Shown here: piece after piece, positions 36,182-64,000 of the stretch
Position numbering within the stretch: the stretch's first letter is position 1
Layout of the letters: every line of letters starts with the position of its first letter
Assembly: GCA_945859605.1 (NCBI GenBank)
Contig: OX243816.1
Span: 36,856,676 to 36,920,675 of the forward strand
Origin: Lumbricus rubellus
Taxonomy: Eukaryota; Annelida; Clitellata; Crassiclitellata; Lumbricidae
Direction of reading: 5' to 3'
Length of the DNA: 64,000 bases
The notes under the pieces: generated by a model
Seen by the model: the letters and a program-made list of their open reading frames with translations, nothing else
Told to the model about the DNA's origin: nothing
The model's database searches: none
Program-made: the position numbers and the translations under genes

Positions 36182-36182
<1 letters not shown>

Positions 36183-36259: not shown

Positions 36260-36323
36260 ATGCCGAAGAAACGCACATCACCTGAATCCAGTGATGATGA
36301 GCCAGCGAATACAGGCTCAGACT
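36260..36323 (+). CDS. Start exon of F-box cluster 1
   Basis: ATG at 36260 in AGACATAATGCCG, then MPKKRTSPESSDDEP, with a GTAAGT donor. The same 64-nt exon with a few substitutions starts cluster 2 at 53764. The sequence upstream ends CTCCTAAAGACATA in both clusters. Confidence 0.75.
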
Positions 36324-36575
36324 GTAAGTTAATGACAAGGAGTTTTAATTTGTCAATATTCATAAGGCTTATATTAGTTGTTGTTTCAATAATTGCTGTA
36401 ATTTGTAAAGTAATTCTTAAACTGTATTTACAGAAAGCAAAAACGTAGCCTATCATTTCTGACCCGCTGACGTTGTTTCTGGCCATATCTTTCTTTGTTA
36501 AATCACTCTGATTTTTCATTGCTATTTTACGCTTAATAAAACTTAGACAGCATTGCATAGCCAAACCATAGCCTT

Positions 36576-36617
<42 letters not shown>

Positions 36618-38919
36618 GGTGAAAGCCTATTAGAAAGTAACTAGCTGATCAGCTGTTTATGCAGGCCTAATTATAATCGCTTCATGAAAAACCCCTCAAA
36701 TACTGGTCTCAGTTGTAGGCCAAAAATACGATGCACGAATAAGAAATTATTTAGGATTGCATTTTATCTCTTGTAGCAGTATTACAGGAAGATGAGAATT
36801 CTAAACGAGCAAAACTCGTCTCATTGAGTGACACGACGGTAAGCTATCACATTCAAATGCAATTCATAGATCTTCTTAATATTAATAATATTATTATAGA
36901 TGTGTCTTTTTTACCATAGCCTTCCGCTAAACATCTCAATACACCATTTAACCAAGGTAATTGTAATGCTAGAAGACGCCTTGTTAATATTGAGCTTGGC
37001 CTCTATTAGACTGAGGATCTCCAAAGTGTCTAACCAGATCTGGTAGGTCTATACGACTAATATCAGACTCGGCTTAAAAGCTCTATGATCGATGAAAACG
37101 TGTCATAGTACAAAGTACAGACAGAATTTTAATGAACGGTAAATCATATTATAGAAATTATAAGTTAAATGAGCGGCAAAATAAGACACTAAAACTAAAT
37201 TATTATTCCAGTTGAAATAGAAGTTGGATCAGTGATTCAATTGCTATTTGCTTATACACATAGTCAGGAGTTCTAAAATCTGGTATTTTTTTACTTTGCC
37301 TGTAGTTGCAAGATTTACCGATGGAACTAATTGAGTCCATCCTCATTAAAGCCATAGTAATGGAAGTGAAGGATTTGAAGCTGGTGAAAAGTGAACGGAA
37401 GGGAAAGGCGGATCCAGTGATAGACAGACTTAGAACAGTATGTCAGCAATGGGACAGCATCCTTACGACAAACTTCTTCCGAAATGAACTCAACAGGACT
37501 TTTGACGGTAATCGTTTGTTCATAAAATTTAATTAAAAGTCGCTCATTTTCATGCGAACGATAAAAAAGAGGACCTGAAATAAGAATCGCGACCAGTGCG
37601 CGGTCTGCGTCTCGCCGTCTTACGCTAGCATGAGATGTCAAAACTTTCATTTTATCAGCTTACCGGTAGGCTACATGTATATATAATTTTACTATGGCAA
37701 GTGGCTATGCCAGTGCCTCACTCCCAGTCTGGTTTCTCACTGCCCTGCAGGCAGAACCTCGTCAAGCTACAATGTATAATTGTATAGGCCTATGCCTAAT
37801 TGCGCCGTTTGTTCTGTGCATAGCAATCGCTCCCAAAGATTATGAAAACAATACAAATATAGATTTTTATAACAAGATCATGCATATATAATATGCATGG
37901 GCGGAGTTTATAAGGGGATAGGGGTGGTTATGCTCCCAAGAAAACCAAGAGTCATTTTTTCACCATGAAATAAAAATTGTAATTTTTGCGGGTTAGCCCC
38001 CTCATGCAAGAAGAAGGCCCAGACTGGAAAATATATTGACCCTATAATTATTTATAACGCAATTGTTTTAGCTCAAAGGACGATTTGTTTGGAAAGTTTG
38101 CATCAATCTCGGCTTGGATTCAGAGTTGCCAGTTTGACTACATTGAGAGATGAAATATTTGTTCTCTCCAGACCATCTACTATTGACGTGTACGACTGCA
38201 ACAATATGGCAGCGGTAAGAGATGTTATCACGGTACGAGAAATATGGCCGGATTACATGGAATCTTGCAGTGTCTCAAACTGCGTGTATATACTACACAG
38301 AATACACAGAACAAGAAACTTTAGAATATTGCGCATTACAAAGAATGGCGAGCACAGTTTTAAAATTGCACTATTGATCACACTCGCCCCTTGGATGCAA
38401 TATTCTACCCTGTCGGTAGCTGCCGATGGCTGCTTAATCGTTTCAGGACATCAGAGGTGCAAGCTTCCAGTGATAAGAATTTATAACGCGGATGGTTCCG
38501 TGCAGCGTGAAATGAAAATGCGCTCAGACATTCCGGAGTTCTCGCGCATAATTCCAAGACCAAATGGAAACCTTGTTTTGGTTTCAACAGACTACGACAT
38601 ACAAACAATATTAAGGGAGATCGACATGGATGCCAAGATTATACGTCAATATCAGACGTCATCACTTGGAGCAATGAGTGTTTGTAATGCAACGTTTGGA
38701 CGCATGATGCTTATCGATCGGAGCATGAAGATCGAGCTTTTAGATTCTGAATTGAATTTCCTTGATGTTACTGGTCCGGAGCTGACTGGGGACAAGCACC
38801 TTCATAATCCATATATATCGCACTTCAATAGTGACAGTAATGAGTTGGTAACTGCTGTACGTGACGCGAAACATATTCCTCTCAATTTCCTGAATATCTT
38901 CCGTTTCCAGGAAGAATAG
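36260..38919 (+). CDS. F-box / beta-propeller protein, cluster 1 (constant exons + first propeller exon)
   Basis: Exons 36260-36323 (64 nt), 36777-36838 (62 nt), 37306-37507 (202 nt) and 38072-38919 (848 nt) join at phases 1, 0 and 1 into 391 residues. The start MPKKRTSPESSDDEP is basic then acidic and may include a nuclear signal. The third exon is an F-box-like domain and the last a TolB/NHL-like beta-propeller. F-box proteins bind SKP1 in SCF ubiquitin ligases and present substrates through a C-terminal domain, so this would be a substrate adaptor; substrates are unknown. Two further propeller exons (41360, 51442) follow with no new F-box exon and could replace the first by alternative splicing. 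The protein class rests on motifs only. Confidence 0.72.
36777..36838 (+). CDS. Second exon of F-box cluster 1
   Basis: A 62-nt exon reads SVLQEDENSKRAKLVSLSDT and is 97% or more identical to 55682-55743. The acceptor is TAGCAG (NAGNAG), so a one-codon alternative start is possible. Confidence 0.7.
37306..37507 (+). CDS. F-box exon of cluster 1
   Basis: The 202-nt exon reads LQDLPMELIESILIKAIVME ... RLRTVCQQWDSILTT ... RNELNRTFD. LPxELIExIL, then a loop, then VCxxW and a final FxRxxL pattern are the F-box signature, with a charged insertion (KSERKGKADP) in the middle. It leaves with one base of a codon (GAC G|GTAATC), exactly the phase needed by every propeller exon. Confidence 0.75.
37896..38035 (+). 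mobile_element. Fragment related to hAT C
   Basis: It starts CATGGGCGGAGTTTATAA, as hAT C does, and shares GGGTTAGCCCCC further in. No matching right end is visible. It lies in the intron just before propeller exon a. Confidence 0.55.
38072..38919 (+). CDS. Propeller terminal exon a (cluster 1)
   Basis: It starts after TTTTAG with CTCAAAGGACGATTTGTTTG and ends in TAG. Blade-like segments recur: TIDVYDCNNM, ESCSVSNCVYILH, ILRITKNGEH, TLSVAADGCLIV, VIRIYNADGSV, RPNGNLVLVS, EIDMDAKIIRQYQ, LLDSELNFLDVTG and NIFRF. About six such strand-turn units suggest a six-bladed TolB/NHL-like propeller. It is the most divergent of the five. Confidence 0.78.
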
Positions 38920-39320
38920 ATTATTCGAAAGAATGTTAACTGTTTAGACAATTTGTATTGTTTTTATTTTTTCGTGTAACGATCATTATCATGGCTTTGG
39001 CCACTATAGGGCCTATCTATATTTTCGAAGTTCGTTGAAGTAAATGGATCTTTTTCATTGAGAAATTGTTTACACTGTGTACTTCACTTAACAAATTAAA
39101 ATAATTTCGTTCTTCTATGCGCTTTACGTTATAGAAGTCTGTTCGCATCTTTTTGCTGATATTTTGCAGGATGGCAGCCTAATTGTGACGAGTCATGCTC
39201 GATCCCGATTTTTTCTATCATCAGTAGGCCTAAATGCTTAACATTTACTTTTATGCATTTCAATTATTTTTAAGCGTATATTATTTTATTTAAGAAAGTT
39301 CAACAGGACAATTGTTTGGA

Positions 39321-40159: not shown

Positions 40160-40176
40160 TGCAACGACAGAGAAAG

Positions 40177-40207
<31 letters not shown>

Positions 40208-41359: not shown

Positions 41360-42225
41360 CTCAAAGAACGATTCGTTTGGAAATTTTGCATCAGTTTGCC
41401 CACCGAGATATCTTCTTCAATTTGACTACAATGAAAGATGAAATCTTTATTCTCAATCATCGAGCGTACCAGGACTTGGCGATTAACGTGTACGATTGCA
41501 ACAATATAGCAACGGTGAAAGACGTCATCAAGTTACCTGAAATATTCCCGCATTGCATGGAATCTTGCAGCGTCTCAAACTGCGTGTATGTGCTACACAC
41601 CTGCAGGAAAGTTCGTTACATTGGAATCTTACGCATAACCAAAGATGACGAACATCAGTTTAATACTAGGCATACGCCATTTATCAGAGGGGTTTGGATG
41701 CCAAATTCGAGACCTACTCTGTCAGTAGCTGCCGATGGTAGATTAATCTTATCAAAAATCCAAGAGAATAAACTTCCAGTAATCTGTATTTATAACGCGG
41801 ATGGTTCCTTGCGGCATGAAATGACTATGTACTCAGATATACCGAAGTTCTCCCGCATAATTCCAAGACCAAATGGAAACCTGGTTTTGGTTTCAACAAA
41901 CCACCAAAGGAAAATAATATTAACGGAGATCGACATGGATGTCACGATCATACGGCAATATCAGACGTCATCACTTGGAGCTGTGTACGTTTTTAATGCA
42001 ACGTTTGGACGCATGATGCTTATCGATGGGACCATGAAGATCGAGCTTTTAGATTCTGATTTGAATTTCCTTGATGTTACTGGTCCGCAGCTGACTGGGT
42101 ACGAGTACATTTATGAACCGAAAACGTCGCACTTCAACAGCCACAGGAATGAGTTGGTAGCCATTGTTCATGGCGCGATCAGTAATCGCCGTAATTTGAC
42201 GATCTTTCGTTTCAAAGAAGAATAA
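41360..42225 (+). CDS. Propeller terminal exon b (cluster 1)
   Basis: An 866-nt exon with the same start (CTCAAAGAACGATTCGTTTG after TTTTTTAG) and the same blade motifs as exon a, ending in TAA; an AATAAA lies near 42437. It is open throughout, so it is unlikely to be a dead copy. Splicing from the F-box exon at 37507 would give a 397-residue protein. No start exon or F-box exon lies between exons a and b. Confidence 0.75.
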
Positions 42226-43735: not shown

Positions 43736-46164
43736 CAGTGGCGGCGCCAGGATTTTTGGTTTGGGGGGGCTGAAGCCCTAAGTCCTTCCTCCCTCATAAT
43801 TATTGCAAGCGCCGAAGGCGCGAAGCTGCGAGTGCCAAAGGCACGAAGCCCGTACCGACTAGGGGGTCTGGGGGAGCGTCGTAAGCTCCCCCAGCGGGGT
43901 CTGGGGCGGAGCCCCAGCCGCCAACGCAATTTTAGCTCTGTTGACCTCAAATGGAGCCATTTTAGGCTCTTTTTTGACAGCTATTTATGCGTGATAAAAT
44001 CCTGAAAAAACGGGGTCTGGGGCGGAGCCCCAGTCACCAACGAATTTTTAGCTCTGTTGTCCTCAATTGGAGCCATTTTGAGGTTCTTTTTTACAGCTAT
44101 TTATGCACGATAAAATCCTGAAAACAACGGGTCTGGGGCAGAGCCCCAGCCACCAACGAATTTTCAGCTCTGTTGTCCTCAACTGGAGCCATTTTAAGGC
44201 TCTTTTTTACAGCTATTTATGCGCGATAAAATCATAAAAACAACGGGGTCTGGGGCGGAGCCCCAGCCACCAACGAATTTTTAGCTCTGTTGTCCTCAAC
44301 TGGAGCCATTTTTAGGCTCTTTTTACAGCTATTTATGCACGAAAATTTTTTCTGAAAACAACGCGGTCTGGGGCGGAGCCCCAGCCACCAACGCATTTTT
44401 TAGCTCTGTTGACCTCAAGTGGAGCCCTTTTTAGGCTCTTTTTTGACAGCTATTTATGCGGGATAAAATCATAAAAACAACGGGGTCTGGGGCGGAGCCC
44501 CAGCCACCAACGAATTTTTAGCTCTGTTGTCCTCAACTGGAGCCATTTTTAGGCTCTTTTTACAGCTATTTATGCACGAAAACATTTTCTGAAAACAACG
44601 GGGTCTGGGGCGGAGCCCCAGCCACCAACGAATTTTTAGCTCTGTTGTCCTCAACTGGAGCCATTTTTAGGCTCTTTTTACAGCTATTTATGCACGAAAA
44701 AATTTTCTGAAAACAACGCGGTCTGGGGCGGAGCCCCAGCCACCAACGCATTTTTAGCTCTGTTGACCTCAAGTGGAGCCCTTTTTAGGCTCTTTTTGCC
44801 AGCTATTTATGAACGATAAAATCATGAAAACTTCAATAAGAGGTCGTTTTGCAGAGTCGCACACTGCCAATATGAGATTGTCCAAATTTTATTGTAAAAG
44901 AAATGGGTTTCGTCTTTACTATGATCAGGCCTATAACCTAACAAGTTTATAAGGATACTGTCATAGGCCTACTGTATCTATGAAACCCTAGGGGGCATGC
45001 TATATGTAGTATTTTTTACAGGCTCAACCCAACCAAAATGTCCCACCCAAAATGTGTAATTTCCTAATTTAAAAAGCTTATTATGTGAAGGCTTAGCCTA
45101 TAGTCCCTATACCTTTTGTGCACGACATTTTGTCGTCGGCGACATTTCGTCTTGCGACATACATGTACATGTATTGAATAGGTGTGCATAGGTGGCCCTA
45201 ACCAGCGGACTCTGCAGTCCCTTCTGGGTGTCCTTTTGTTACCAAGAGCGTTCATGCTTATTTTGATGATAGAGATCTATTTCGTGTGTGCTTTTTGGCT
45301 CAATAAAAAATTTGAAAATTGATTGTCACTTGACGTTTTGTCTTGCGACATATCGTCACTGCGACATTTTGTCGGCGACATTTTGCCAGGTCACCAGCCG
45401 GGTCTTTCAGGGTCTGCGACCCGACATTGATTTTCGTGACTTCCTGGTGCCGGGTCTCAGTCGGTAACAAGTTTTTAAAAAAATGGGAAAATAGGGCCTA
45501 ACTAAAAAATCTTGTCGTGAGACACAAAAAATAGATAAAAAGGTATGATTTTGAATTTTTTTGGCAAATGAGTAAAAAAAAAGGTAGTCAAAGGCTTCGG
45601 CTCGTCCACCAAAGTCAGACCCGGCAACTTTCCCAAATCACTTTCAGCCCTGGCCTAGGCCTTCCGGTAGAATTCGAGTTTTCTAGAATATTAAAGCCTA
45701 CAGTGCCTTATTGGCGGGAAATCAACTTCGCAAATGTTATGCTTGAGAACTCTTTTCAGAGAATCGCTTGCTTCTTGGGCCCCGCACACCCTAGGGCCGG
45801 GCTTGACCACAAACTTGGGGACCGTCCCCTATGGCCCAAAGTCTCCCCATGTGTGCTGCTGCTAATTGGAAACCCCATTTCGTATGTGATTTCATAAAAC
45901 TACAGGCGTAGCCCTCAGCCGGCCACCGTGCTGCATATGGTGTACAACTGTACATAACCTCATCACGGCTCGGCGGCATGTTTATTAGGATATTAAAGCA
46001 CTCTACGCTATGATTACATAGTTGATTTCATTGACGTTGGTCACTGTCTAGATTTCTTTTTCGAAGTTAGCAGTTGTAGAAATTTTCCTCGTTTTGTTTT
46101 GGGGGGGCTGAGCCGCCGATAGGGGGGGCTTAGCCCCCCCTAGCCCCCCCTGGCGCCGCCACTG
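43736..46164 (+). mobile_element. hAT D, copy 2 (eight internal repeats)
   Basis: The same TIRs and body as copy 1, with a perfect 8-bp duplication GTCTGCAT (43728-43735 and 46165-46172). The extra length over copy 1 (355 bases) equals three more ~117-bp hairpin units. It is inserted in the LINE reverse transcriptase/3' region, so it is younger than the LINE. Confidence 0.96.
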
Positions 46165-47361
46165 GTCTGCATGGTATGGTATGAATGCACCTCAGTAGTA
46201 TGGATAAAAAAATTCTTAAACACAGGAGGTAATAGGCTATGGAAATATTTAAACATGAATTCACCTATCTGCATCTGTCTAATTTGGTAAACATTGAGAA
46301 GGCTGTATTCGTGGAATTTAGATTCAGTCGAAGTTCCATAGGGCAAGTTTGCTATATATCTAATTGCTCGCTTTTGGAGCTTCATTAAATCCAGAAGACT
46401 AGATTTATAGGTAGAGGCCCATATTATGTTACAGTATGTGAGGTAAGGGTATATGAGTGAGTAATACAAAGTAAGACGAATTTGGGGAGGCACTAGCTGG
46501 GAGGTACGGGATAATATTCCAAGATTTTTAGCGATTTTATTAGTTACAGTTTTTATGTGGTCTTTCCAGGTTAGGTGTTGATCTACATACACTCCTAAAA
46601 ATTTGGTTGATATTACCTGGGTGAGTGGGACCCCTTCAATGCACACCCCCAGGTTTCCTGTATGACAACTCTTTCTATGGGATTTAAAAATTATATAATT
46701 AGTTTTATCCAGATTTAACGACAGTTTATTAGCATGGAACCATTCGGCTACATTTTTCAATTCAAAGTTGACGTCATTAAATAGAGTTTCAAGAGATGAG
46801 CTGGAGTAAAATACATTAGTGTCATCAGCGAAGAGTATAAAGTACAACAGAGAAGATGCATTAGGGAGATCATTGACATAGATCAGGAACAGCAAAGGAC
46901 CGAGAATTGACCCCTGGGGTACTCCAAAATTAATTTGCCGAAGGTTAGATAGAGCACCATTACAGGAAACCAATTGGGATCGATTAGTAAAATAACTTGA
47001 GAACCAATTTAATTGGGTGTCCCGGATCCCATAAGTGCTTAGTTTTTTTTAGTAAGATATCATGATTAACAGTGTCAAATGCTTTTGCCAGGTCGAAAAA
47101 GATTCCTATTGCGTACTGGTTATTTTCAATTGCATTGGAGATTTTGTCTTGCATACTCATTAGGGGCATGTAGGTAGAGTGCCCGGATTGGAAACCATGT
47201 TGAGAAGGGAAGAGAACATTTCCCTTAGAAAAGAAATTATTTAGACGTACATACATAGCTTTTTCAAAAAAATTTGAGAAAAATGGTAGTACTGAAATTG
47301 GTCTATAGTTTGTTACATCGTCTTTAATCCCTTTTTTTATAAACTGGAACCACTTTGGCAA
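46140..47361 (-). pseudogene. LINE reverse transcriptase, frameshifted
   Basis: Two minus-strand frames (47361-46984 and 46973-46140) together cover the RT. The break is in the homopolymer after HDILLKK; one fewer A would keep the frame. The downstream part ends inside the target duplication and the hAT. The FADDTN catalytic box is intact. Confidence 0.85.
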
Positions 47362-47487: not shown

Positions 47488-50032
47488 CAGTGGCGGCGCC
47501 AGGATTTTTGGTTTGGGGGGGCTGAAGCCCTAAGTCCTTCCTCCCTCATAATTATTGCAAGCGCCGAAGGCGCGAAGCTGCGAGTGCCAAAGGCACGAAG
47601 CCCGTACCGACTAGGGGGTCTGGGGGAGCGTCGTAAGCTCCCCCAGCGGGGTCTGGGGCGGAGCCCCAGCCGCCAACGCAATTTTAGCTCTGTTGACCTC
47701 AAATGGAGCCATTTTAGGCTCTTTTTTGACAGCTATTTATGCGCGATAAAATCATGAAAAAACGGGGTCTGGGGCGGAGCCCCAGTCACCAACGAATTTT
47801 TAGCTCTGTTGTCCTCAATTGGAGCCATTTTGAGGTTCTTTTTTACAGCTATTTATGCACGATAAAATCCTGAAAACAACGGGTCTGGGGCAGAGCCCCA
47901 GCCACCAACGAATTTTCAGCTCTGTTGTCCTCAACTGGAGCCATTTTAAGGCTCTTTTTTACAGCTATTTATGCGCGATAAAATCATAAAAACAACGGGG
48001 TCTGGGGCGGAGCCCCAGCCACCAACGAATTTTTAGCTCTGTTGTCCTCAACTGGAGCCATTTTTAGGCTCTTTTTACAGCTATTTATGCACGAAAAAAT
48101 TTTCTGAAAACAACGGGGTCTGGGGCGGAGCCCCAGCCACCAACGAATTTTTAGCTCTGTTGTCCTCAACTGGAGCCATTTTTAGGCTCTTTTTACAGCT
48201 ATTTATGTACGAAAAATTTTTCTGAAAACAACGCGGTCTGGGGCGGAGCCCCAGCCACCAACGCATTTTTAGCTCTGTTGACCTCAAGTGGAGCCCTTTT
48301 TAGGCTCTTTTTTGACAGCTATTTATGCGGGATAAAATCGTAAAAACAACGGGGTCTGGGGCGGAGCCCCAGCCACCAACGAATTTTTAGCTCTGTTGTC
48401 CTCAACTGGAGCCATTTTTAGGCTCTTTTTACAGCTATTTATGCACGAAAAAAATTTCTGAAAACAACGGGGTCTGGGGCGGAGCCCCAGCCACCAACGA
48501 ATTTTTAGCTCTGTTGTCCTCAACTGGAGCCATTTTTAGGCTCTTTTTACAGCTATTTATGTACGAAAAATTTTTCTGAAAACAACGCGGTCTGGGGCGG
48601 AGCCCCAGCCACCAACGCATTTTTAGCTCTGTTGACCTCAAGTGGAGCCCTTTTTAGGCTCTTTTTGCCAGCTATTTATGAACGATAAAATCATGAAAAC
48701 TTCAATAAGAGGTCGTTTTGCAGAGTCGCACACTGCCAATATGAGATTGTCCAAATTTTATTGTAAAAGAAATGGGTTTCGTCTTTACTATGATCAGGCC
48801 TATAACCTAACAAGTTTATAAGGATACTGTCATAGGCCTACTGTATCTATGAAACCCTAGGGGGCATGCTATATGTAGTATTTTTTACAGGCTCAACCCA
48901 ACCAAAATGTCCCACCCAAAATGTGTAATTTCCTAATTTAAAAAGCTTATTATGTGAAGGCTTAGCCTATAGTCCCTATACCTTTTGTGCACGACATTTT
49001 GTCGTCGGCGACATTTCGTCTTGCGACATACATGTACATGTATTGAATAGGTGTGCATAGGTGGCCCTAACCAGCGGACTCTGCAGTCCCTTCTGGGTGT
49101 CCTTTTGTTACCAAGAGCGTTCATGCTTATTTTGATGATAGAGATCTATTTCGTGTGTGCTTTTTGGCTCAATAAAAATTTGAAAATTGATTGTCACTTG
49201 ACGTTTTGTCTTGCGACATATCGTCACTGCGACATTTTGTCGGCGACATTTTGCCAGGTCACCAGCCGGGTCTTTCAGGGTCTGCGACCCGACATTGATT
49301 TTCGTGACTTCCTGGTGCCGGGTCTCAGTCGGTAACAAGTTTTTAAAAAAATGGGAAAATAGGGCCTAACTAAAAAATCTTGTCGTGAGACACAAAAAAT
49401 AGATAAAAAGGTATGATTTTGAATTTTTTTGGCAAATGAGTAAAAAAAAAAGGTCGTCAAAGGCTTCGGCTCGTCCACCAAAGTCAGACCCGGCAACTTT
49501 CCCAAATCACTTTCAGCCCTGGCCTAGGCCTTCCGGTAGAATTCGAGTTTTCTAGAATATTAAAGCCTACAGTGCCTTATTGGCGGGAAATCAACTTCGC
49601 AAATGTTATGCTTGAGAACTCTTTTCAGAGAATCGCTTGCTTCTTGGGCCCCGCACACCCTAGGGCCGGGCTTGACCACAAACTTGGGGACCGTCCCCTA
49701 TGGCCCAAAGTCTCCCCATGTGTGCTGCTGCTAATTGGAAACCCCATTTCGTATGTGATTTCATAAAACTACAGGCGTAGCCCTCAGCCGGCCACCGTGC
49801 TGCATATGGTGTACAACTGTACATAACCTCATCACGGCTCGGCGGCATGTTTATTAGGATATTAAAGCACTCTACGCTATGATTACATAGTTGATTTCAT
49901 TGACGTTGGTCACTGTCTAGATTTCTTTTTCGAAGTTAGCAGTTGTAGAAATTTTCCTCGTTTTGTTTTGGGGGGGCTGAGCCGCCGATAGGGGGGCTTA
50001 GCCCCCCCTAGCCCCCCCTGGCGCCGCCACTG
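47488..50032 (+). mobile_element. hAT D, copy 3 (nine internal repeats), mismatched flanks
   Basis: Intact TIRs at both ends and nine hairpin units. The left flank (TTTGCCGT) is LINE sequence and the right flank (ATAGTGAC) is a piggyBac relic, so there is no target duplication. It is nearly identical to copies 1 and 2 outside the array. Confidence 0.95.
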
Positions 50033-51035
50033 ATAGTGACGTCGGGGTGGCAGATCAATCCACAGATGATTATGATGACGATGACGATATTCCTCTTACC
50101 GAATATGTGGAACTGCAAGTAATGTTACTGAAAGTCGGTATTTGGTCGGTTGGCACAATCCGTTCAAACCGTCTCAGAGGTTGTGACCTGCAGACGGAAA
50201 AGCAGTTGAAGAAAAGGGGTCGTGGATCATGTGACCATCGTACAGACAAGAAGACTGATTTGACGGTAATTCGGTGGATGGACAGTTCTGCTGTGCAGCT
50301 AGCATCAACCCATGTAGGTACTGAGCCAATGTCAACAATACACAGATGGGACAGACAGCACAGGAAGTATGTCAAAGTTTCATACCCAGCCATCGTCAAA
50401 GAATACAATGACAATGGGCTCAGAAACGCTTCCAAGAAGAAACAAAGAGTCACGGCAGCTAAAGTGTCTGGGCGTTACGACAACGTTGGACATTTTCCAG
50501 AACACTCTGAAGCCAAACAGAGATGCAAAATGTGTCACAGTTACATACGCATAAAATGCATAAAATGTCAGTGCCATATGTGTGTCACAAAGGACAGGAA
50601 CTGTTTTTTAGCATTTCATACTCAGTCAGTGTAGCCTATGTTCGAGTGCTCAATTGTTCATGTTTGAAATTTCATCCGAGACTAAATAGGCCTAATTCCC
50701 AGTAGGCCTATTAGTGAATTGATGTTCATGTTGGAGTAGCTATGTTTTCAGTTTACATTCTAATTTCTGAACAGTCTGAAAGGTTTCTCATCTTAATTTA
50801 GCAAGTTACTAGCATTATTGTTTGTTATTTGAAAAAAATTGAAACTTCGGTTTTATTCAGTTTTTTGGGTACCTCTGAACCCCAATGACTCCAAATGGAG
50901 TCATGCCCAAAAATGCACTTTTCCACATTTTAAAAATAAAATTCCAAAAGGCATGTGTTCTGGTCTATAAAGTAAGCATAGTTTACATATTCCATAATTT
51001 TTTCCTTTAAAAAAATCAATTTGGGAATGAAAGGG
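50033..51035 (+). mobile_element. piggyBac element relic, left end lost
   Basis: The right end is AATGAAAGGG followed by TTAA (51036-51039), the piggyBac target site. The left end is cut off by hAT D copy 3. It contains the deleted transposase frame 50047-50634 and a palindromic subterminal CTCCAAATGGAG (50888-50900). Confidence 0.8.
50047..50634 (+). pseudogene. Internally deleted piggyBac transposase
   Basis: The 195-codon frame contains GIWSVGTIRSNRLRGC, RGSCDHRTD, VIRWMDSSAVQLAS and VSYPAIVKEYN, typical of PGBD/piggyBac transposases, then the C-terminal Cys-rich finger (RCKMCHSYIRIKCIKCQCHMC). An acidic N-terminus (DDYDDDDDIPLTE) is joined directly to the middle, and the usual segment after PAIVKEYN (MGGVD onwards) is missing. 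At least two in-frame deletions have removed much of the catalytic domain. The frame is still open, so a small DNA-binding protein is conceivable, but a relic is more likely. Confidence 0.8.
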
Positions 51036-51441: not shown

Positions 51442-52331
51442 CTCAAAAGACGATTCGTTTGGAAATTCTGCACCAGTCTCCGCCCCGATACAGAATCTCC
51501 AGTTTGACTACATTGAAAGATGAAATATTTATTCTCTACGGACCAAGGTATAGAATGTCAAACGACGTTGCTCTTGATGTGTACGACTGTGACAATATGG
51601 CAGTGGTGAAAGAGGTTATCCTGCTACCAAGAATATTTCCGATTTGCATTGAGTCTTGCAGCGTCTCAAACTGCGTCTATGTACTACACAAAAGAAGAAC
51701 CGAGTACATGAATATCTTACGCATTACTAAAGATGCAAATCACCAGTTTAGTATGACACCATTGATCACTGACGCATGGATGCCAAATCCTGTACCTACT
51801 CTGTCAGTAGCTGCCGATGGAAGTTTAATCTTCGCAAGAAAGCAAACGGGTAGACTTCCAGTGATAGGCATTTATAACGCGAATGGTTCCGTACGGCATC
51901 AGATGAAGCTGTACTCAGATATACCGCACTTCTCCCGCATCATTCCAAGATCAAATGGAAACCTTGTTTTGGTTTCATCAGACGATCACGTGCGAATAAG
52001 TGAAACAACATTAACGGAGATCGACATGAATGCCACGATTTTACGTCGATACCAGACGTCATCACTAATTGGAGCTGTGAACGTTTTTAATGCAGGCACG
52101 TGTGGCCAAATGATGCTTATCGATCGGATCAACAGAATCGAACTTTTAGATTCCCAATTGAATATCCTTGATGTGACTGGTCCGCAGCTGACTGCGAACA
52201 AGTTCATTTACAGTCCAGCTACATCGCACTTCAATCGCGACAGGAATGAGTTTGTAGCCATTGTGTATGACAATTGCATTTGTCCTCTACATAAATTGTT
52301 AACTATCTTCCGTTGCACAGAAGCATTATAG
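51442..52331 (+). CDS. Propeller terminal exon c (cluster 1)
   Basis: An 890-nt exon after TTTTAG, starting CTCAAAAGACGATTCGTTTG and ending in TAG, with all the blade motifs. It is closer to exons d and e (YGPRYRMS, MNILRITKDANHQF) than to a or b. It is separated from exon b by about 9 kb of transposons. In frame with the F-box exon it gives 405 residues. Confidence 0.75.
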
Positions 52332-53573
52332 ATCATTCGAAGAAATGCTGAAGAGTTTAAATTGTCTCATTATTTTTGTATAATGTCATATCTTTTTCTA
52401 TATAGAATACCTGCATTTTAGATGAACTCTGTTGAAATTAATCAACCTTTTCTTTTTTAAGAAAGACATAGTTTGCATTAAATATTATTTCGTTCTTCTT
52501 TGTTTCGAGAGTTTTGTTTTAAAGAAGTTTTGCTGTTGTATTATTATTTCACTGCGCTACTTTTGTCAAACAAAAATTCTTCACACTGATATTATTAACA
52601 ATACTAATTATTGTAGGCCTACACGAAGTAAAATCGAGAAATTTACATTTTTAAAGACTCTATAAAAAACACTAATGTTCTCAATTTCCTGCACTGCATT
52701 TTCAAGCTCTTGCTGATCAATTTAACCGTGACAATTGCGTTTTGCTCCTCCTGAAAGAATATATATCAGTGGGCGCCCTTGTTCGCATGCAATTCAAGAC
52801 CAATAATATTATGTTCGGTCGTGGTCTTGCGCAGTTAGGCTGGTGGCAGCTCCTCACAGTGTTTTGGAAAGCATCCTTCAGGTGCCGCAACTGTTGCAAT
52901 GAGAGTCAGTCTGGCTGAGGACCGACTGCTGCATGCAGTGGCCAGGAACGACTTCCACGTCAGTCGAGGTCTTTTCCAGCCAAAGAACAACCATCATCCA
53001 GGTCTCAGGGCCCGTATGCACAGTTTCGAACTTCCGAGCAAAGATGACCGTAACTTTGCCTCTGGAGTTCTTTTTAAACATATTACTAAAGCATAGTCTA
53101 ACCAAAGATATTAGAGTCGTAGACTACGACTCTAATATCTTTGGTCTAACTATAGATTCAATTCAATTCCAAAACTGATTGCTCCTTTAATATTATTATT
53201 TCAATGTAATTTTGGTCTGTCTCAATGTATGCCGTAGGTTGCTGTTTTCCAACCTGTTTTTGCTCATTAAACGAATATACAATTATACATATAGGCTACA
53301 TAAGATAATAATATATATAGACCTACGATTAATCGCCTGTAAGGACACTACTCTTTGATTTGCGTCACGAACCGCATTTACCGTCCCACGGGAGGACATC
53401 GAAACAACAAAAACGTGTTTAGCAGCAATGCCAAATATGCATAATTGCTTAATTTTGTGCAAGCCATAGTGCGATTAAAGATTTGGAAAACATATAGAAT
53501 ATGGCCTACTTACTTTTTTACTTCCTAACTGCTAGGCTTACTTAGTGTAAATAAATATGAACTGTCTATGTTG
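52332..53573. other. Intergenic between F-box clusters
   Basis: It contains the 3' flank of propeller exon c, a perfect 45-bp palindrome (53101-53145) and, at about 52750-53080, a GC-richer block with partial open frames on both strands (plus: AEDRLLHAVARNDFHVSRGL) that may be a transposon relic. No family is recognised with confidence. Confidence 0.4.
53101..53145. repeat. Perfect 22-bp-arm palindrome
   Basis: The arms ACCAAAGATATTAGAGTCGT-AG and their exact complement flank a single A. It would form an almost loopless hairpin or cruciform. Confidence 0.95.
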
Positions 53574-53604
53574 TGACGTCACAAAAAATTGCTTCAAGAC
53601 GTCA
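53574..53604 (+). promoter_or_regulatory. CRE motifs, candidate promoter of F-box cluster 2
   Basis: TGACGTCA at 53574-53581 and AGACGTCA at 53597-53604, with the same spacing (23 bases) as the two CREs upstream of cluster 1. The start codon follows 160 bases later with no insertion. Confidence 0.55.
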
Positions 53605-53763
53605 TCATCAGTTATGTTGGTATTTCCTTCGTGTTGATTTGAGATTATTCTGGTTCGATTTGCCAGCAGTCACCGCCAAAAGATTGGTGTTTCTTAAAGC
53701 ATTGAGGAGGCGAGGTCTATTCTTCCGAAGATCTGATAATTATAAGCATCTCCTAAAGACATA

Positions 53764-56700
53764 ATGCCGAAGAAACGCACATCATCTGAATCCAGTGATG
53801 ACGATCCAGCGAATAAAGGCTCAGACTGTAAGTAACTGTTTATGCCAACGAGTTTTGATAATCGAAGTGACTAGCGGACCGCCAGGCGGCCGTCCAATTT
53901 CAATTACTGGCGGACCGCCCGGCGGCCATCTGATTTCAATTACTAGCGGACCGCCAGTCACGTGTAACCTGTCACATGAGTGACGAGTCTTGATTCTTGA
54001 ATATTGTTACAATGGCGGCAGTTACCGATAGTTTGTTTGGTAATCCTGGGAACGGCGGTCGTAAATTCCGAAACACTGTTTTTATATTGTGTATATAGTC
54101 CGTGGGTACTATAATTTTAATTCACCTTTTAATTTCGAATTAATTTTTCGAATTTATTCCGAAATTATTTTAGCGACGCGCATATCCGCTTTTATAAATC
54201 CGACTTCTATTTAGATAACAAATATTTCTCATCTACCATTTAGTCAAGAAATCGTTTAAATTTGTTCAAAATACGACATTTCGCATGCGAAATCGCCGTT
54301 CGAATCGCCATTGAACCACAACATTTGACCGGAAGTTGGGTACGCGTCCAAACCATCGACGTATAATGGTCCATGCGACAATAAATAACGTGTACGTTCA
54401 GACTGCGATCCTAAGTTCAAAATACAATCACTGGAAGCTGGACTGATTAAAATATTCTTACCTCAATTGAAGCTGGGTTAATGAAAATATTCTGGCGTAA
54501 ATTGAAGCTGGATGGCTGAAAATAATTATTATTAAAATAGAAGTTGGGTGCAGCGTAAGAATTTGTTCGATAAATCCCGTTTCTATTTCGCCAGCAAATA
54601 TTTCTCATCGATTTGATAAATTATTCATAAGACAACTGATGCAATTGAAATATAATCTGGACTTTTACTTACTTACTTATTTTTGCGTGCTGTCTTATTG
54701 CACACCTGGCGCACGCAATTTCCGGAAAGGGTCGTGTTTTCAGCTTTGTGTTTTACGCGCCTCGCCGTTTAAAGTTTATAAATTCGATTAAAAATATTTG
54801 CTGACAAAATAGAAGCGGGATTTAGCGCTTGAGGGTCGGTTAGGGCTCAGGTTAGGCGTCGTGAGGGTCGGTTAGAGTTAGTTTTAGGGTTAGTGCAGTC
54901 ATTCTGCTGAAATTGAAGCTGGATTGATGAAAATGTTCTTGCCTAACTAGAGCTGGATTGACGAAAAAATTGTTATCTAAATAGAAGTTGGATAGCAACT
55001 ATTGAATGACGCGATTGGCATCAATTATTTCGACGCTGAAAACAGTGTTTCGGAATTTACGACCGCCGTTCCCAGGATTACCGTTTGTTTTAGATCTATG
55101 TCGGACAAAAGTTTTCTTGTTTTAATGACTTAGAAAATTGCAAAAAAAGAGTATGAAATGAGTAACTTTTGTAATCTAACAATGCTATATATCATTTTCA
55201 TCCGTCCCACTTCTAGTTACCAAAAACGTGAATGATTTTCATCAATCCAGGCGGCTTGCTAGTATTCGTTATTGGACGGCCGCCACTGGCGGTCCGCTAG
55301 TATTCAGCATTAGACGACCGCCTGGTGGCTTGCTAGTATTCCGTATTGGACGGCCGCCACTGGCGGTCCGCTAGTATTTGAAGTTCGAGGGCCGCCTGGC
55401 GGTCCGCTAGTCACAGCCATCTTTGGTAATATCATAAAGGTTTATTTAAGCTGTAGTTGCGATGACCCATGATAGACACAAAGTGCCACAAACTCCAGGC
55501 AAGCACCTTTCCCCCCATCCTCTTGGCCGAAATAGTGTGCTGCGAGATGCACCAGTATAAAAATTTAGATACGCTACAATCACTTACTTAAAAGACAATT
55601 GCTTCCGTCAGTTGTAGGATAAATTCTATTCACGAATTATGATTAATTTCTTATAATTAATTGCAGTTATTTCTCTTGCAGCAGTATTACAGGAAGATGA
55701 GAATTCTAAACGTGCAAAACTCGTCTCATTGAACGACACGACGGTAAGATTTTCTGTAGGCGTAGGCCTACATTAGCCTACATTCAAATGGCCTATCAGG
55801 TCACATACTCATGCAGTCTCTTTAATCCAAACTTAGTGAATTTCTTTGAGCGCGGCTTACTGGCCAACATTTCTAGGCTCTTATTATGGCAAAGTAGCAT
55901 TATTAACACTTGGAGATGATCGTATGTGTTGCAAAGGCAAAGATTTAAGTATAAAATGCGTAATATCGCAAAATGAGATGGGCTTCAAACTCGGCAAACC
56001 TATTAGCCTACACCTATAAAATAATGTGGCTTAATGCCCTATGTATTAATGCTCGGTGTCTGCTTATCTCAGTTAGCGTTACGATCATCGTATGATTTTG
56101 TCATGTTATTGGTTCAACTGCGCCGGTGTAAAGGTTTCAAATTACCCCTCCTAAACATTACCCCCCTGCAAACTGTAATTTGCATCAATCATGGCATTTA
56201 TTGCACTAAACATATAAGAAAAATCATCCCGCTTCTTGTTTGGGTCTGAAGATTTTCATCCGTGATCCCACTTCGTGGTTTGTTATCAATATTTTCATCT
56301 GTAACTAAAATACTAAATCGCCGCTGAAGCTACATGGAAAAATGGCTTCGAGGCTATTATTTTTTCCCGATTAGAATATTGATAGGGCCTTTCAAACCAC
56401 GAAGTGGGATGACAGATGTAAATTGTCAGACCAAAACAAGAAGCGGGATGATTTTTCTGATTTTTTAGTGCAATAAATGCGATGATTGATGCAAATTTAG
56501 TTTCCGGGGGGTAATCTGAAACCGGTTTCAAGTTACCGGGGGTAATGTTTAGGAGGGGGTAATTTGAAACCTTTACACCGGTCACACTACATGGAATTAA
56601 TTTCATATCGATCAGCAGGCTTAACATTTCTAACCATTGTTTAAAACGCATGAGCGAGAGTTCTTCTTAAAGCTAACCAGGAGAATTTATGTTTCATGAT

Positions 56701-59700
56701 GTATCCAGCTTCAATTGCAGCCGTAACTTCCGTAAGATTCCTTAAGCCAACCTCCATTTGTAATGCATCTTTCATTAATCCAGCTTCTATTTCAGCTATG
56801 AAAATACCCTGATACAGCATCTGTATCTAAAGCGTTATTTTAATCTCTCCAGCTTCCATTTCATACATGAAAATATCTAGGCAGAGCCTTCATCCAGCTT
56901 CCATTTCACATGCGTCTTTTCATTAATCCAGCTCTATCTCATATATACAAATTCACTAATCCAGCTTTCATTTCTTCCATACCATTTTGTCCGTACCATT
57001 TTGTCCGTACCATTTTGTCCGCTACCATTTTGTCAGGTCACCAAATACACCAGTTAAGCAGAGTCATTTTTTGTGATGCTATAGAAAGAAGTCTTGCGTG
57101 CTTGCGTTCGATTATGCCCTTTCACATTTTTATTATACTGAGCGTGTAAGCGTATTTCGAAGTTTAGAACTTGGAAATGCCATCAGTAGGGTAGGAGTCC
57201 CGGTTCTGTTACAATATAAGGAAAGGTTAAGGTCAAAATCGAAGTCCTCTCCCTTTGCTGATTGTCGTGGCGTCTAGTCTAAACTTAAAAGGTCCTTAAT
57301 TGTCCGTATATACTCTGGTCTGAAGAGCTCTAAAGTGTCTGTAATTATGATATATTTTTACTTTGCCTGTAGTTGCAAGATCTACCGATCGAGCTAATTG
57401 AGCGCATCCTCATTAAAGTCATAGTAATGGAAGTGAAGGATTTGAAGCTGGTGAAAAGTGAACGGAAGGAAAATGCGGAACCAGTAATAGACAGACTTAG
57501 AACAGTCTGTCCGCAATGGGACAGCATCCTTACGACAAAGTTCTTCCGAAATGAACTCAACAGGACTTTTGACGGTAGGTCTCTACTGGTTTCTAAATTA
57601 ATAATGCATAGTCGCTTAAGTTGTCTGTGCGATAAACTAGGATCTGCTGTTTTGCCCCTCTGACCCTGTGGTAACTCAACCCGGACCTCCTTTGGGTTGC
57701 TCATACGGACAACCCTTTTGACGCAACGCAGCACTCGTGAATAAGCTGGTGCCACGCGCGTCTACTGTCGGGTGAAGTTTACCTTTTTGCAGTCTACTAG
57801 GCTACTATAACACAGAGGGTGTGCCACCGCAAAAAGTCTATTGCAAACTTACGCAGTTAGAAAAAATCCAAAGCACTTTTGCGTTTTAACCCTTTAACAA
57901 CCAGCTATATATGTTTTCCATGCATTTTAGTACACGCTGGTCGTTAAAGGGTTAACATAAAAATATATTGTTGTAAACAGCAACACCTCAGAATATATTT
58001 AACGTTGAATATAGAATTGGAAGTTGAACACGAAATAATTACAAGCAACATAATCTAAGCAGGACAGCTTGGACAGAGCACTTCCAAATGACGGCCATGT
58101 CGGCTAACTGACGTCAGCACTTATCGTTCACTGCGCACTACATAGGCCTACAAACTAGCAAGCAATGGTCAATACCTAACATCAGAACTTTGTGCATGTT
58201 TCATCTTAACTTTTTTCCGGTGACTGGCCGTGAAATAAACATTATTCTGGAAATATAGTTTTTCGGATAATGCTCAAACTTTCCGCACGTCTCCGCGACT
58301 GATGGCGGCAGCCTAGTCGCATTTGAGCAATATATACAGATTGGGTAAAAAAATAATCCCCTAGAGTTTTTGTCGATATAATACCCCCACCCTAAATACT
58401 GTCATGTACGCTTGTACAGATAGGCTACTCTGAACAGGATGTGTGTTTAGTTGGCAACTGTTGTGTGGGAGTGTCTGTCGCCTGAAACTTCCTCGGTTTT
58501 TTCTTATTTGGGAATGCTGCTTACAGATGACTTCATTATTCGTATTGAACATTGACGTCATTGAATATAAATCGCAAATATTCTTTTAACTGCTAGACTC
58601 ATACCGGTACGTCGAACAGCACAGGATTTGTGTATTTACAGTGAATTCGTAGTTTTCTTGATAGCACCACAGCCACCACCACCATTTCCAGCTTCGACAT
58701 TTTAATACTATGTCGTAACTTTTACGGGCAGTTGTCATCAAAGAATTTTAAGATTATAGGCCCGCTCGCAACTGTATACGGCGATCTATTTTACGTGCGG
58801 TTAATATAGTGTGGTCTCCTGGTAACAACGCTCACTTGTCTTATTTAGCATTGCATCAGTGTCGCTTTCAAAACATAATTTTCAACAACCTCTGCAATTA
58901 TTAATTTTCTTATTGCATGTCAACTTTATCCACCCATAATTCTATTGAAAACACGTAATCCATTCATTCCTGATATTCATATAGAGCCACTTCCATTAGC
59001 CTGCACAGAAGCTGACGTTTCCGGTTTAGGCCTGTTTTAGGTCTCAAGTTTCTTTTATAAACATTCTACTTAGGCTAATCATTGAAGTAGAATGTGTTGG
59101 GCGTATCAATTCAATTTTTATAACTTTTTGACGCATAATTGCATACACTTAAAGTCGTAAACCTACAGAATGATTATTCTCTGTCGTTTTTTGAGAAAAG
59201 CGTGTGACACCTGCCACCATTTGCGCGATTTACATAGCACAATTATAATTTCTGCAGCTCAAAAGACGATTCGTTTGGAAATTTTCCATCAGTCTCAGCC
59301 CCGATCAGAAATCTCCAGTTTCACTACACTGAAAGATGAACTCTTTATTCTCTATGGACCAATTTATGGAACGTCAAAAACCGTGGCTCTCGATGTGTAC
59401 GACTGTGACAATATGGCAGTGGTGAAAGATGTTATCCCGCTACCAGAAATGTATCCGATTTGCATTGAGGCTTGCAGCGTCTCAAACTGCGTCTATGTAC
59501 TGCACAAAAGAAGAACCGTTTACATGAATATCTTGCGGATTACTAGAGACGATGAACACCAGTTTAGTATGACACCATTGATCACTGACGCATGGATTCC
59601 AAATCCTTGGCCTACTCTGTCAGTAGCTGCCGATGGCAGTTTAATCTTCACAAGAAAGCAAAAGGATCAACTTCCAGTGATAAGCATTTATAACGGGGAT

Positions 59701-60123
59701 GGTTCCGTACGGCATCAAATGAGGATGTACTCAGATATTCCGGAGTTCTACAGCATAATTCCAAGACCAAATGGAAACATTGTTTTGGTTTCAACAGTAT
59801 TGTATAGGAAAACAACATTAACGGAGATCGACATGGATGCCACGATTATACGTCAATATCAGACGACATCATATGGCGCATTGGGTGTTTTTAACGTAAG
59901 CATGTGTGGACGCATGATGCTTATAGATCGGAGCAACAGAATCGACCTTTTAGATTCTCAATTGAATTTCCTTGACGTTACTGATCCGCAGCTCGACGAG
60001 TACATTTATGATCCAGAGACATCGCACTTCAATCGCCACAGGAATGAGTTGGTAGCCATGGTAACTCACCCCAAAAAATACCGGATCAGTTTGATAACTA
60101 TCTTCCGTTTCACAGAAGAATAA
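53764..60123 (+). CDS. F-box / beta-propeller protein, cluster 2 (constant exons + first propeller exon)
   Basis: Exons 53764-53827 (64 nt), 55682-55743 (62 nt), 57373-57574 (202 nt) and 59258-60123 (866 nt) join at the same phases as cluster 1 into 397 residues. All exon lengths of the constant part are identical to cluster 1. Start MPKKRTSSESSDDDP; F-box exon LQDLPIELIERILIKVIVME to RTFD; propeller exon d. Introns 1 and 2 hold a fold-back element and an inverted-repeat element. A second propeller exon (61104) follows, and probably a third beyond the window. Role by analogy: SCF ubiquitin-ligase substrate adaptor, possibly nuclear. Confidence 0.74.
53867..55414. mobile_element. Fold-back element with (GACTAGCGGACCGCC)n ends
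   Basis: The left end GTGACTAGCGGACCGCCAGG is mirrored at the right end (CCTGGCGGTCCGCTAGTCAC). Both ends hold several tandem units of GCGGACCGCC-type sequence spaced by AATTTCAATTACT- or TAGTATT-like spacers. A second, inner inverted pair lies at about 54024-54085 and 55028-55087. There is no open frame. It sits in intron 1 of F-box cluster 2. Target duplications are not clear. Confidence 0.8.
55682..55743 (+). CDS. Second exon of F-box cluster 2
   Basis: 62 nt after TTGCAG, reading SVLQEDENSKRAKLVSLNDT. The acceptor is CAGCAG (NAGNAG), so a one-codon alternative is possible. Confidence 0.7.
56123..56581. mobile_element. Inverted-repeat element (MITE-like)
   Basis: The arms begin CCGGTGTAAAGGTTTCAAAT and extend about 170-190 bases each, including AATCATCCCGCTTCTTGTTT and CCCACTTCGTGGTTTG, with a short unique centre. 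No clear target duplication. In intron 2 of cluster 2. Confidence 0.75.
56980..57036. repeat. 14-bp tandem repeat TACCATTTTGTCCG
   Basis: Three exact units plus a fourth variant ending TGTCAGGTCACC. The last phrase resembles CATTTTGCCAGGTCACC inside hAT D, so this may be a fragment of a related repeat. Confidence 0.85.
57373..57574 (+). CDS. F-box exon of cluster 2
   Basis: 202 nt, reading LQDLPIELIERILIKVIVME ... RLRTVCPQWDSILTT ... RNELNRTFD. It differs from cluster 1 at only a few residues. It ends GACG|GTAGGT, phase 1, as required by the propeller exons. Confidence 0.76.
57575..59257 (+). other. Intron between F-box exon and propeller exon d
   Basis: Besides the 62-bp TTAA element I see no repeat or exon. 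The last 250 bases are homologous to the sequences before exons c and e and to the end of the window. Confidence 0.55.
57890..57951. mobile_element. Miniature TTAA-flanked element (62 bp)
   Basis: The ends CCCTTTAACAACCAGC and GCTGGTCGTTAAAGGG are inverted (one difference), and TTAA lies on both sides (57886-57889, 57952-57955). It is a piggyBac-like end pair with almost no interior. Confidence 0.75.
59258..60123 (+). CDS. Propeller terminal exon d (cluster 2)
   Basis: 866 nt after TTCTGCAG, starting CTCAAAAGACGATTCGTTTG and ending in TAA. The blade motifs are as in the other four (ALDVYDCDNMAVVKDVIPLP, SCSVSNCVYVLH, TLSVAADGSLIF, SIYNGDGSV, EIDMDATIIRQYQ). A frame opening at ATG 59170 runs into it, but the splice site at 59257 and the paralogues fix the exon start. 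Confidence 0.8.
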
Positions 60124-61103: not shown

Positions 61104-61972
61104 CTCAAAAGACCATTCGTTTGGAAATTTCGAATCAAATTCGGCCGCGATTCAGAATCTCCAGTTTGACTACACTGAAAGATGAAATATTTATTCTTTA
61201 CGGACCAAATTATGGAATGTCCAAAAACGTTGCCCTTGATGTGTACGACTGTGAAAATTTGGCAGTGGTGAAAGATGTTATGCCGCTACCAGAAATGTAT
61301 CCCGTTTGCATTGAGGCTTGCAGCGTCTCAAACTGCGTCTATGTACTACACAAAAGAAGAACAGTTTACATGAATATCTTACGCATTGCTAGAGATGACG
61401 AACACCAGTTCAATAGTACACCATTGATCACTGACGTATGGATGCCAAATCCTTGGCCTACTCTATCAGTAACTGCCGATGGCAGCTTAATCTTCACAAG
61501 AAAGCAAAAGGACAACCTTCCAGTGATAAGCATATATAACGCGAATGGTTCCGTTCAGCATCAGATGAGAATGTACTCAGATATTCCGGAGTTCTACCGC
61601 ATAATTCCAAGACCAAATGGAAACCTTGTCTTGGTTTCAACAGATTGCTCTTGGAAAACAACATTAACGGAAATCGACATGGATGTCACGATTATACGTC
61701 AATATCAGACGTCATCACTTGGCGCAGTGAGTGTATGCAATACACGCATGCTTGGAAGCATGATGCTTATCGATCGGAGCATGAAGATCGAGCTTTTAGA
61801 TTCTGAGCTGAATTTCCTTGACGTTATTGGTCCGCAGCTCAATGACGACAAAGGCATTTATCCAGCAACATCGCATTTCAGTCGCGACAGGAATGAGTTT
61901 GTAGCTGTTGTGTATGATCGTTTCAATTATCCGCTCTGTTTGTTAACCATCTTCCGCTTAACAGAAGAATAG
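61104..61972 (+). CDS. Propeller terminal exon e (cluster 2)
   Basis: 869 nt after TTCTGTAG, starting CTCAAAAGACCATTCGTTTG and ending in TAG, fully open. It is very close to exon d. It has no start or F-box exon of its own. Joined to the cluster 2 F-box exon it gives 398 residues. Confidence 0.76.
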
Positions 61973-63255: not shown

Positions 63256-63590
63256 CTACAGTTGTGGAGACTTTCTTCTGAACTCCATCCCATCAGGTCT
63301 TTTCTTCCGGTTGTTCAGCTGCTTATGAGGGGTGACGACGATTGCTTTGTGGTCAGTTTTTAAGGTGGAAGATAGAAGTTTAACGATCGAGTAGCAATGT
63401 TCTGATACAAAGAGGCGGTCAAACATGTTTTTGTCCTTGTGGGTTATGTAACTATATGCAACCAAACCTGTTCTCTCAGCAACGTCGCACTCGATGCTCT
63501 CCATCTAGTCGGTTAAAGTCACTACCCAAAACCACCATCGTAGACCAGACCTTCTTGAAGGCTTCTTCCCATAAGGTCACATAGGAAGAG
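63256..63590 (-). pseudogene. LINE endonuclease fragment
   Basis: On the minus strand TMVVLGSDFNRL (GDFN-type motif of EEP endonucleases, about 63505-63540) is followed after a frame change by DRLFVSEHCYSIVKLLSS and TDHKAIVV (the SDH-like catalytic histidine motif). This is the apurinic-type endonuclease of a jockey/CR1-like LINE, broken by a frameshift. Confidence 0.6.
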
Positions 63591-63709
63591 ATTATTTTAT
63601 TCATTTGCAAGTCCACTTTATCGTTCTGCGCAGGAAACTATTGCACACACGGTACGGTATCCAATAATTGGTCTCAACCTCTTTCTGTCTCATGAGCTCA
63701 TAATGTCTC

Positions 63710-63793
63710 ATAATTTTCAGGAAGAATCGCTATATACATTTCCGGAATAATATTATTCCGGAAATTTATATAGCGATTCTTCCTGAAAATTAT
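63710..63793. repeat. 84-bp near-perfect palindrome
   Basis: Two 42-base arms meet at 63751/63752 with one mismatch; each arm contains TTCAGGAAGAATCGCTATAT and TTTCCGGAATAAT. There is no spacer. Confidence 0.95.
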
Positions 63794-64000
63794 ACCCAAA
63801 GATTAATATTTCAACCGTAGGTCTATTTTACGTTTTCAGTTTATAAGTTTACATTCTACTTTCAACCTGAATCAGAATGCGTTCAATTTTATAACTTGTT
63901 TTTGACGGGCTATTTGCGTGCATGTAGCGGTTGTACCCTATGTAGCCTTAATGATCGAACAGTGTCGTCTATTGAGGAAATGTGTGTTACACCTGCCACT
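63794..64000 (+). other. Intron sequence preceding a predicted further propeller exon
   Basis: AGATTAATATTTCA, TCAATTTTATAACTTGTTTTT, GTGTCGTCTATTGAGGAAATG and ACACCTGCCACT match, in order, the introns before exons c, d and e. In those, the CTCAAA(A/G)GAC exon start follows 42-46 bases after CTGCCAC, so a sixth propeller exon is predicted at about 64045. Confidence 0.6.

Follow-up and report, generated by a model that had tools for sequence, protein, structure and literature searches.

Tandem F-box adaptor genes with additional, probably alternative, terminal exons for a predicted propeller in Lumbricus rubellus

The stretch of Lumbricus rubellus DNA analysed here (the window; 64,000 nucleotides, C6:36856676-36920675 of a 787-Mb, 368-contig genome) contains the start of a tandem array of putative F-box genes, in which a constant set of front exons is followed by one or more complete terminal exons predicted to encode a propeller. 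Positions are given in window numbering, those above 64000 lying past the window edge, and all features of the array are on the plus strand. The first constant set comprises an exon 1 of 64 nt that carries the ATG (36260-36323, donor GTAAGT), an exon 2 of 62 nt (36777-36838) and a 202-nt exon 3 (37306-37507), which is assigned as an F-box exon by way of family members. Its upstream region, presumably promoter and 5′ untranslated region, was matched at 35913-36259 using nhmmer (E 3e-39). Three terminal exons follow, namely 1a (38072-38919), which begins after an AG acceptor in phase 1 and is open to its own stop, 1b (41360-42225) and 1c (51442-52331), and joining them to the front exons gives products of 391, 397 and 405 amino acids, respectively. 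The second set has its upstream region at 53468-53763 (nhmmer E 8.8e-61), its 64-, 62- and 202-nt exons at 53764-53827, 55682-55743 and 57373-57574, and its terminal exons 2a and 2b at 59258-60123 (product 397 amino acids) and 61104-61972 (398 amino acids). The last letters of the window (63900-64000) belong to the 5′ flank of 2c, the third terminal exon of this set, located at 64051-64916. A first-pass annotation of the window had described five interchangeable terminal exons (a to e) in two clusters; we reproduced every coordinate, length, splice dinucleotide and phase of these exons, and likewise the lengths of the five joined products, each of which contains only its final stop. Both exons that it placed in cluster 2 (d and e, here 2a and 2b) were recovered, while its count of two for that cluster became three with 2c. 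With pairwise identities of 74-85% over 817-885 aligned nt, the five window copies do not resemble one another by chance.

We searched for further copies, as had been proposed with that annotation, starting 76 kb 5′ of unit 1, of which 40 kb precede the window, and continuing downstream to C6:37069600. The array spans 113 kb (36260-149567), so that only its start falls within the window, and it holds 10 constant sets, 19 terminal-exon places and, beyond these, a terminal-exon fragment near 73.7 kb. The constant sets start at positions 36260, 53764, 66712, 74956, 87476, 96123, 102498, 113149, 125493 and 144427, and units 1-10 are followed by 3, 3, 2, 1, 2, 1, 2, 2, 1 and 2 terminal exons, respectively; no further terminal exon was found in the 63 kb past the array end. 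Thus, 7 out of the 10 units carry at least two terminal exons, or 6 out of 10 when leaving out unit 5, whose second copy is broken. Of the 19 terminal exons, 17 are open, the two others being 4a, with an apparent insertion, and 5b, which loses its frame at about codon 213 and lies behind a partial F-box relic. An AG precedes all 19 copies and phase 1 is kept in all 17 open ones. Where the front exons are intact, which is the case in eight units (1, 2 and 5-10), joining gives 15 in-frame products of 392-408 codons including the stop, with GT at every donor and AG at every acceptor, and five of these units (1, 2, 7, 8 and 10) combine an intact set with two or three open in-frame terminal exons.

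What precedes the downstream terminal exons bears on whether they could be genes of their own. An nhmmer model of the upstream region, covering the 400 nt before exon 1 and built from all 10 units, matched before each of the 10 constant sets. When the gaps preceding 1b, 1c, 2b, 2c, 3b, 7b, 8b and 10b were searched at E≤10, neither exon 1, 2 or 3 nor the upstream region was matched, in agreement with the earlier statement that the window has no additional start or F-box exon between its terminal exons. As there is not a single N base in positions 33000-151000 (118 kb), assembly gaps of that kind do not account for the absence of front exons. The downstream exons might nevertheless belong to separate genes with first exons and promoters of another kind that went unrecognised, and the earlier annotation had named own promoters and start codons for b, c and e as what would speak against a shared front. 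The gaps, at 1 to 9 kb, would provide room for this, and an in-frame upstream ATG is present in 2 of the 8 open downstream copies (2c at -19 and 8b at -52). For the other six, however, the open stretch upstream contains no in-frame ATG, the family front exons and upstream region are missing from the gaps, and their common AG and phase 1 are indicative of splicing, which leaves separate genes as a very improbable explanation. Conservation 5′ of the terminal exons falls on average to random level beyond about 100 nt, similarly for first and downstream copies, and some pairs, in which first and downstream copies are mixed, share 400-880 nt of upstream sequence. The motif TGACGTCA occurs exactly in 5 out of 10 upstream regions but not in the 1000 nt preceding any of the eight downstream exons; we did not use it as proof. 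Two TGACGTCA motifs are also found at 33374-33604, 3 kb before unit 1, in an incomplete upstream-region copy. No family front exons were found between this copy and position 36260, and it is possibly the relic of a lost unit.

We next compared the state of first and downstream copies. Eight of the 9 downstream terminal exons are open, as are 9 of the 10 first ones, although the pairwise synonymous divergence (dS) among downstream copies is 0.19-0.62. In a neutral simulation along the tree branches, the probability that all eight downstream copies stay stop-free was about 3e-12, a value obtained with substitutions only, uncorrected for gene conversion and with branch lengths that are not clean since the terminal exons are mosaic. 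Many inner nodes of the tree are weakly supported, and two within-unit sister pairs have a support of 99, namely 8a/8b (ratio of nonsynonymous to synonymous divergence, dN/dS, 0.47) and 10a/10b (0.75). Selection was judged from pairwise dN/dS and from private changes instead of a codon-model omega. Private changes, which lie at positions otherwise invariant among the open copies and are less open to conversion, should be replacements in 84% of cases under neutrality; the broken copies 4a and 5b and the fragment near 73.7 kb were left out of all selection counts. Downstream copies carry 42 replacement and 22 silent private changes (0.35 of the neutral expectation, p 1.7e-4), and first copies 62 and 29 (0.40 of neutral, p 8.9e-5). 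The selection pattern is shared by both groups and indicates that the downstream terminal exons are under purifying selection, with the caveat of gene conversion.

This caveat arises from the mosaic nature of the terminal exons, whose segments switch nearest neighbours between first and downstream copies and also between first copies of different units. Such switching, together with the strong mosaic signal described below, is what would be expected if the downstream exons were silent donor cassettes that feed segments by gene conversion into an expressed first exon. We consider this highly improbable, as silent donors have no need of a frame and yet 8 of 9 have kept it, private replacements have been purged, and the exchange between first copies of different units is what ordinary tandem families display as well.

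The front exons behave differently from the tails. Between units, exons 1-3 are on average 93-95% identical, compared to 64-74% for the adjoining intron stretches and 59% for random pairs, and silent divergence is 0.089 in exon 3 versus 0.374 in the terminal exons. Because of these contrasts with introns and tails, the front exons are taken to be kept alike, by selection or by conversion, while the tails differ. Near-identical front exons and a common phase across units would also suit trans-splicing, with the downstream exons transcribed apart and then joined to the front exons of any unit. The layout resembles that of mod(mdg4), for which alternative 3′ exons with independent promoters are described (PMC12692577), and trans-splicing would explain why open terminal exons persist in unit 3 behind a broken front. 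No conserved block peculiar to the downstream exons was seen, however, and cis-splicing needs fewer assumptions, so that we regard trans-splicing as improbable, if a little less so than the two explanations discussed above.

To what protein would such a spliced transcript lead? The F-box assignment of the 202-nt exon stands for the family, whereas the set 2 exon of the window itself stays below the Pfam cut-off (12.9 bits versus 20.5 for PF00646). Among five F-box exons scanned only one, from a relative on C3, exceeded it (20.9 versus 20.5 bits), and neither of two whole window products matched PF00646 in a Pfam scan. Nonetheless, 9 of 24 family members matched the F-box profile at E≤1 (best 1.8e-5), and the homologue P0030 is labelled PF00646. 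An AlphaFold2 model of the set 2 exon consists of four helices (pLDDT 89.6), for which Foldseek returned no match at E≤0.001. A search of Protein Data Bank (PDB) sequences with the F-box profile was discarded, having given chance-level matches only. We take these sequence comparisons to mean that the exon encodes a divergent F-box with an insert between two conserved halves.

The propeller label given earlier to the terminal exons is upheld by structure prediction. Exon 2b, the sole terminal exon modelled, was run in AlphaFold2 with an alignment of the 5 window exons and 27 database proteins, resulting in model m27ad9ccd9469 with a pLDDT of 87.8 and a pTM of 0.87. The model has 23 listed strands plus one short strand in the DSSP line, and can be read as six four-stranded blades, with the ring closed by the N-terminal strand. 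Its best fold matches in the PDB according to Foldseek were Brat NHL entries (E from 4.9e-9, TM 0.63-0.67 by query length), and Skp1-Fbw7 entries (2ovq) were also among the matches; at the sequence level, the terminal-exon profile hit the TRIM2 NHL domain at E 0.0045. In Pfam, the terminal exons of two window products had no match at E≤1, and of three diverged relatives two had none at E≤10 and the third only a chance-level one to PF01244 (E 0.08), meaning that NHL and WD40 signatures were absent from all five proteins scanned.

In propellers, the loops that connect strands D-A and B-C lie on one face and those connecting A-B and C-D on the opposite one. When loops were assigned to faces from the strand order of the exon 2b model, variation among the 17 open exons was one-sided. 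The D-A/B-C loops (12 loops, 73 residues) had a mean entropy of 1.44 and a dN/dS of 1.00, compared to 0.67 and 0.43 for the A-B/C-D loops (11 loops, 53 residues) and 0.73 and 0.43 for the strands, a bias that was reached with p 0.0003 upon permutation of the loop labels. Furthermore, 31 of the 32 loop gap columns fall on the variable face. The same pattern was seen in both groups of copies, with dN/dS values of 0.93, 0.41 and 0.39 for the variable face, the other loops and the strands in the eight downstream copies, and 1.06, 0.44 and 0.46 in the nine first copies. Such a pattern would be expected of a recognition surface that is under pressure to change, even though a dN/dS of 1.00 is in itself no proof of positive selection.

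To see how common extra terminal exons are, we turned to the rest of the genome, where the family amounts to at least 135 terminal-exon and at least 150 F-box-exon matches. These and all following counts refer to the candidates scored (135 of 638, 150 of 475, 139 of 802 and 142 of 640 candidates), so that very diverged extra exons could be missing. In six other arrays, among the matches listed, 60 F-box exons are accompanied by one terminal exon, 2 by none and 0 of the 62 by two, with the terminal-exon lists for C5:42.5, C5:45.4 and C4:11.6 resting on a query only 36-44% identical. The nearest relatives, at C4:37.52-37.54M, likewise have 3 F-box exons for 3 terminal exons. A much larger sister array at C5:20.55-20.95M consists of 23 F-box exons on the minus strand followed by 14 on the plus strand, with one terminal exon each except for a single F-box exon that has none. 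When other close terminal-exon pairs were sought by eye among the matches listed, only a locus at C8:35.45M and one split copy at C3:2.09M came up. At the former (C8:35447084-35452838), the first terminal exon after the F-box exon is disrupted by an apparent insertion, and next come two open ones 1 kb apart, which derive from a duplication of about 1.8 kb (88.5% identity, dN 0.122, dS 0.245, dN/dS about 0.5). Judged by its exons, the C8 unit is an independent second case of the multi-tail layout, and since its first terminal exon is broken, that exon must be skipped if a full product is made at all.

Because the downstream copies are open, appear to be under purifying selection and have neither front exons nor an upstream region in the eight gaps before them, the constant set upstream probably uses them as alternative last exons. 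For the mechanism, we favour, with moderate confidence, a choice in cis among last exons from one promoter, in tandem F-box adaptor genes that have gained extra terminal exons. Most units would have acquired additional complete 3′-terminal exons, each with its acceptor, stop and 3′ flank; transcription would begin at a single promoter upstream of each unit, the donor of the F-box exon would be spliced to a single propeller exon out of those at hand, and the choice would be coupled to the poly(A) site used. If the F-box binds Skp1 and the propeller recognises ligands, one Skp1-Cullin-F-box adaptor could in this way present different recognition faces.

Several observations weigh against this scheme, and most of them speak for its main rival, according to which the downstream exons are remnants of birth and death, that is, former genes minus their front exons or duplicates of last exons, which are unused and have not yet decayed. 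The terminal exons are recombinational mosaics in the PHI test (0 of 1000 permutations reached the observed value), and owing to this mosaicism, gene conversion from working copies could slow decay and keep unused terminal exons intact for a while. Front exons do get lost, as is evident from the partial F-box relics that were detected before 5b, itself broken, and 6a only, and a recent loss could mimic a layout of one set with many tails; behind the partial upstream-region copy at 33374-33604, too, no front exon of the family was found before 36260. In unit 3, exon 1 has 5 additional nt that shift the frame and lead to a stop at codon 40, and 3a and 3b are open nevertheless, while exon 1 of unit 4 has lost its ATG. 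Docking and selector RNA pairing between the intron that follows the F-box exon and elements upstream of the terminal exons, which could have guided a choice of exons and was suggested by an apparent 8-base complement of two consensus elements, was rejected, as cognate pairs were no better than non-cognate ones (mean -36.19 kcal/mol for 19 pairs versus -36.16 kcal/mol for 171 pairs, with 61% of permutations as low), and poly(A) hexamers have no fixed place common to all copies, nor did poly(A) signals, tried as a separator of first from downstream copies, give a clean pattern. We still hold unused remnants to be rather unlikely. The downstream copies have remained open despite their divergence, replacements have been purged among private changes, no front-exon relics were found before the eight open downstream copies, and such orphans were not seen in the six other arrays among the matches listed. 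Hence, of the option raised with the first-pass annotation, namely untranscribed duplicates of the last exon, passive decay is disfavoured by the open frames, the common selection pattern and the preserved AG and phase.

The layout of alternative last exons as such has precedents. In mod(mdg4) and lola of Drosophila, a BTB domain is encoded by the constant part and the specificity domain by the variable part. As in the array, constant 5′ exons precede alternative 3′-terminal exons (PMC12692577), while the Drosophila genes are trans-spliced and form one locus each, and the array has 10 tandem units with 1-3 tails, an F-box front, a whole-propeller tail and presumed splicing. Pip and PGRP-LC, which are not known to be F-box proteins, offer another parallel. 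For these Drosophila genes, terminal exons or 3′ variable regions duplicated in tandem are described, with mutually exclusive choice and competing RNA structures (PMC9013439), in contrast to the array, where the pairing test was negative. Large and clustered F-box families are known from the nematodes C. remanei and C. elegans, although multiple terminal exons are not mentioned in the passages of that report consulted (PMC5041008), and the partner domain in the array is an NHL-like propeller. In the units of the array, a single upstream region comes first and the variable exons end the row. Clustered protocadherins and UGT1 also have arrayed variable exons that share constant exons, but there the variable exons stand in front, each with its own promoter. 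In FBXW proteins such as Fbw7, an F-box is combined with a propeller that reads the substrate; the propeller predicted here differs in being six-bladed, closest to Brat NHL and without a WD40 Pfam match in the proteins scanned. Among the titles and abstract openings listed in searches of an open-access library, none described F-box genes whose propeller terminal exons form arrays. The layout itself is known from mod(mdg4), lola and pip; what appears to be new, going by these listings, is its occurrence in repeated units that join an F-box front to a propeller tail with one variable face.

If the predicted junctions exist, one F-box promoter would give rise to more than one substrate receptor, and protein degradation would thereby have a constant/variable design. 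As a tentative extension, which we rate as possible and well below the cis scheme itself, the array may constitute a splice-selected repertoire of ubiquitin-ligase adaptors, in which any face of a unit, or with trans-splicing any face of the array, could be placed behind one F-box. Selection acting on one surface, together with gene conversion among the terminal exons, would diversify the faces while the front remains near-identical, and the result would be intracellular variable/constant recognition via degradation, plausibly in immunity or in conflict with genome parasites. The one-sided variability of the propeller predicts that the face concerned serves as a surface for a ligand or substrate and is under pressure to change, and the array provides a natural test, by comparing first with extra terminal exons in a family that is otherwise 1:1 in the arrays examined.

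Some further sequences were noted in the window. By eye, two very similar 2.5-kb repeats (43738-46166 and 47490-50034), whose ends are of the GGCGCCGCCACT type and which contain tandem repeats, lie between 1b and 1c, flanking a reverse-transcriptase-like frame on the minus strand (46140-47048). Intron 1 of unit 2 harbours a MITE-like insert (53860-55420, by eye) bounded by similar, partly inverted 'ctagcggaccgcc..' sequences. Frames at 21619-22110 (minus strand) and 50002-50634 resemble C-terminal parts of hAT-like and piggyBac-like transposases. Upstream of the array, a frame at 10718-11632 has a presumably caspase-like SGHG...DCCYA stretch, and another on the minus strand (16190-17089) combines a transmembrane-like stretch with a terminal KRRDVKEWYV, which we assume to resemble the C-terminus of neurexin.

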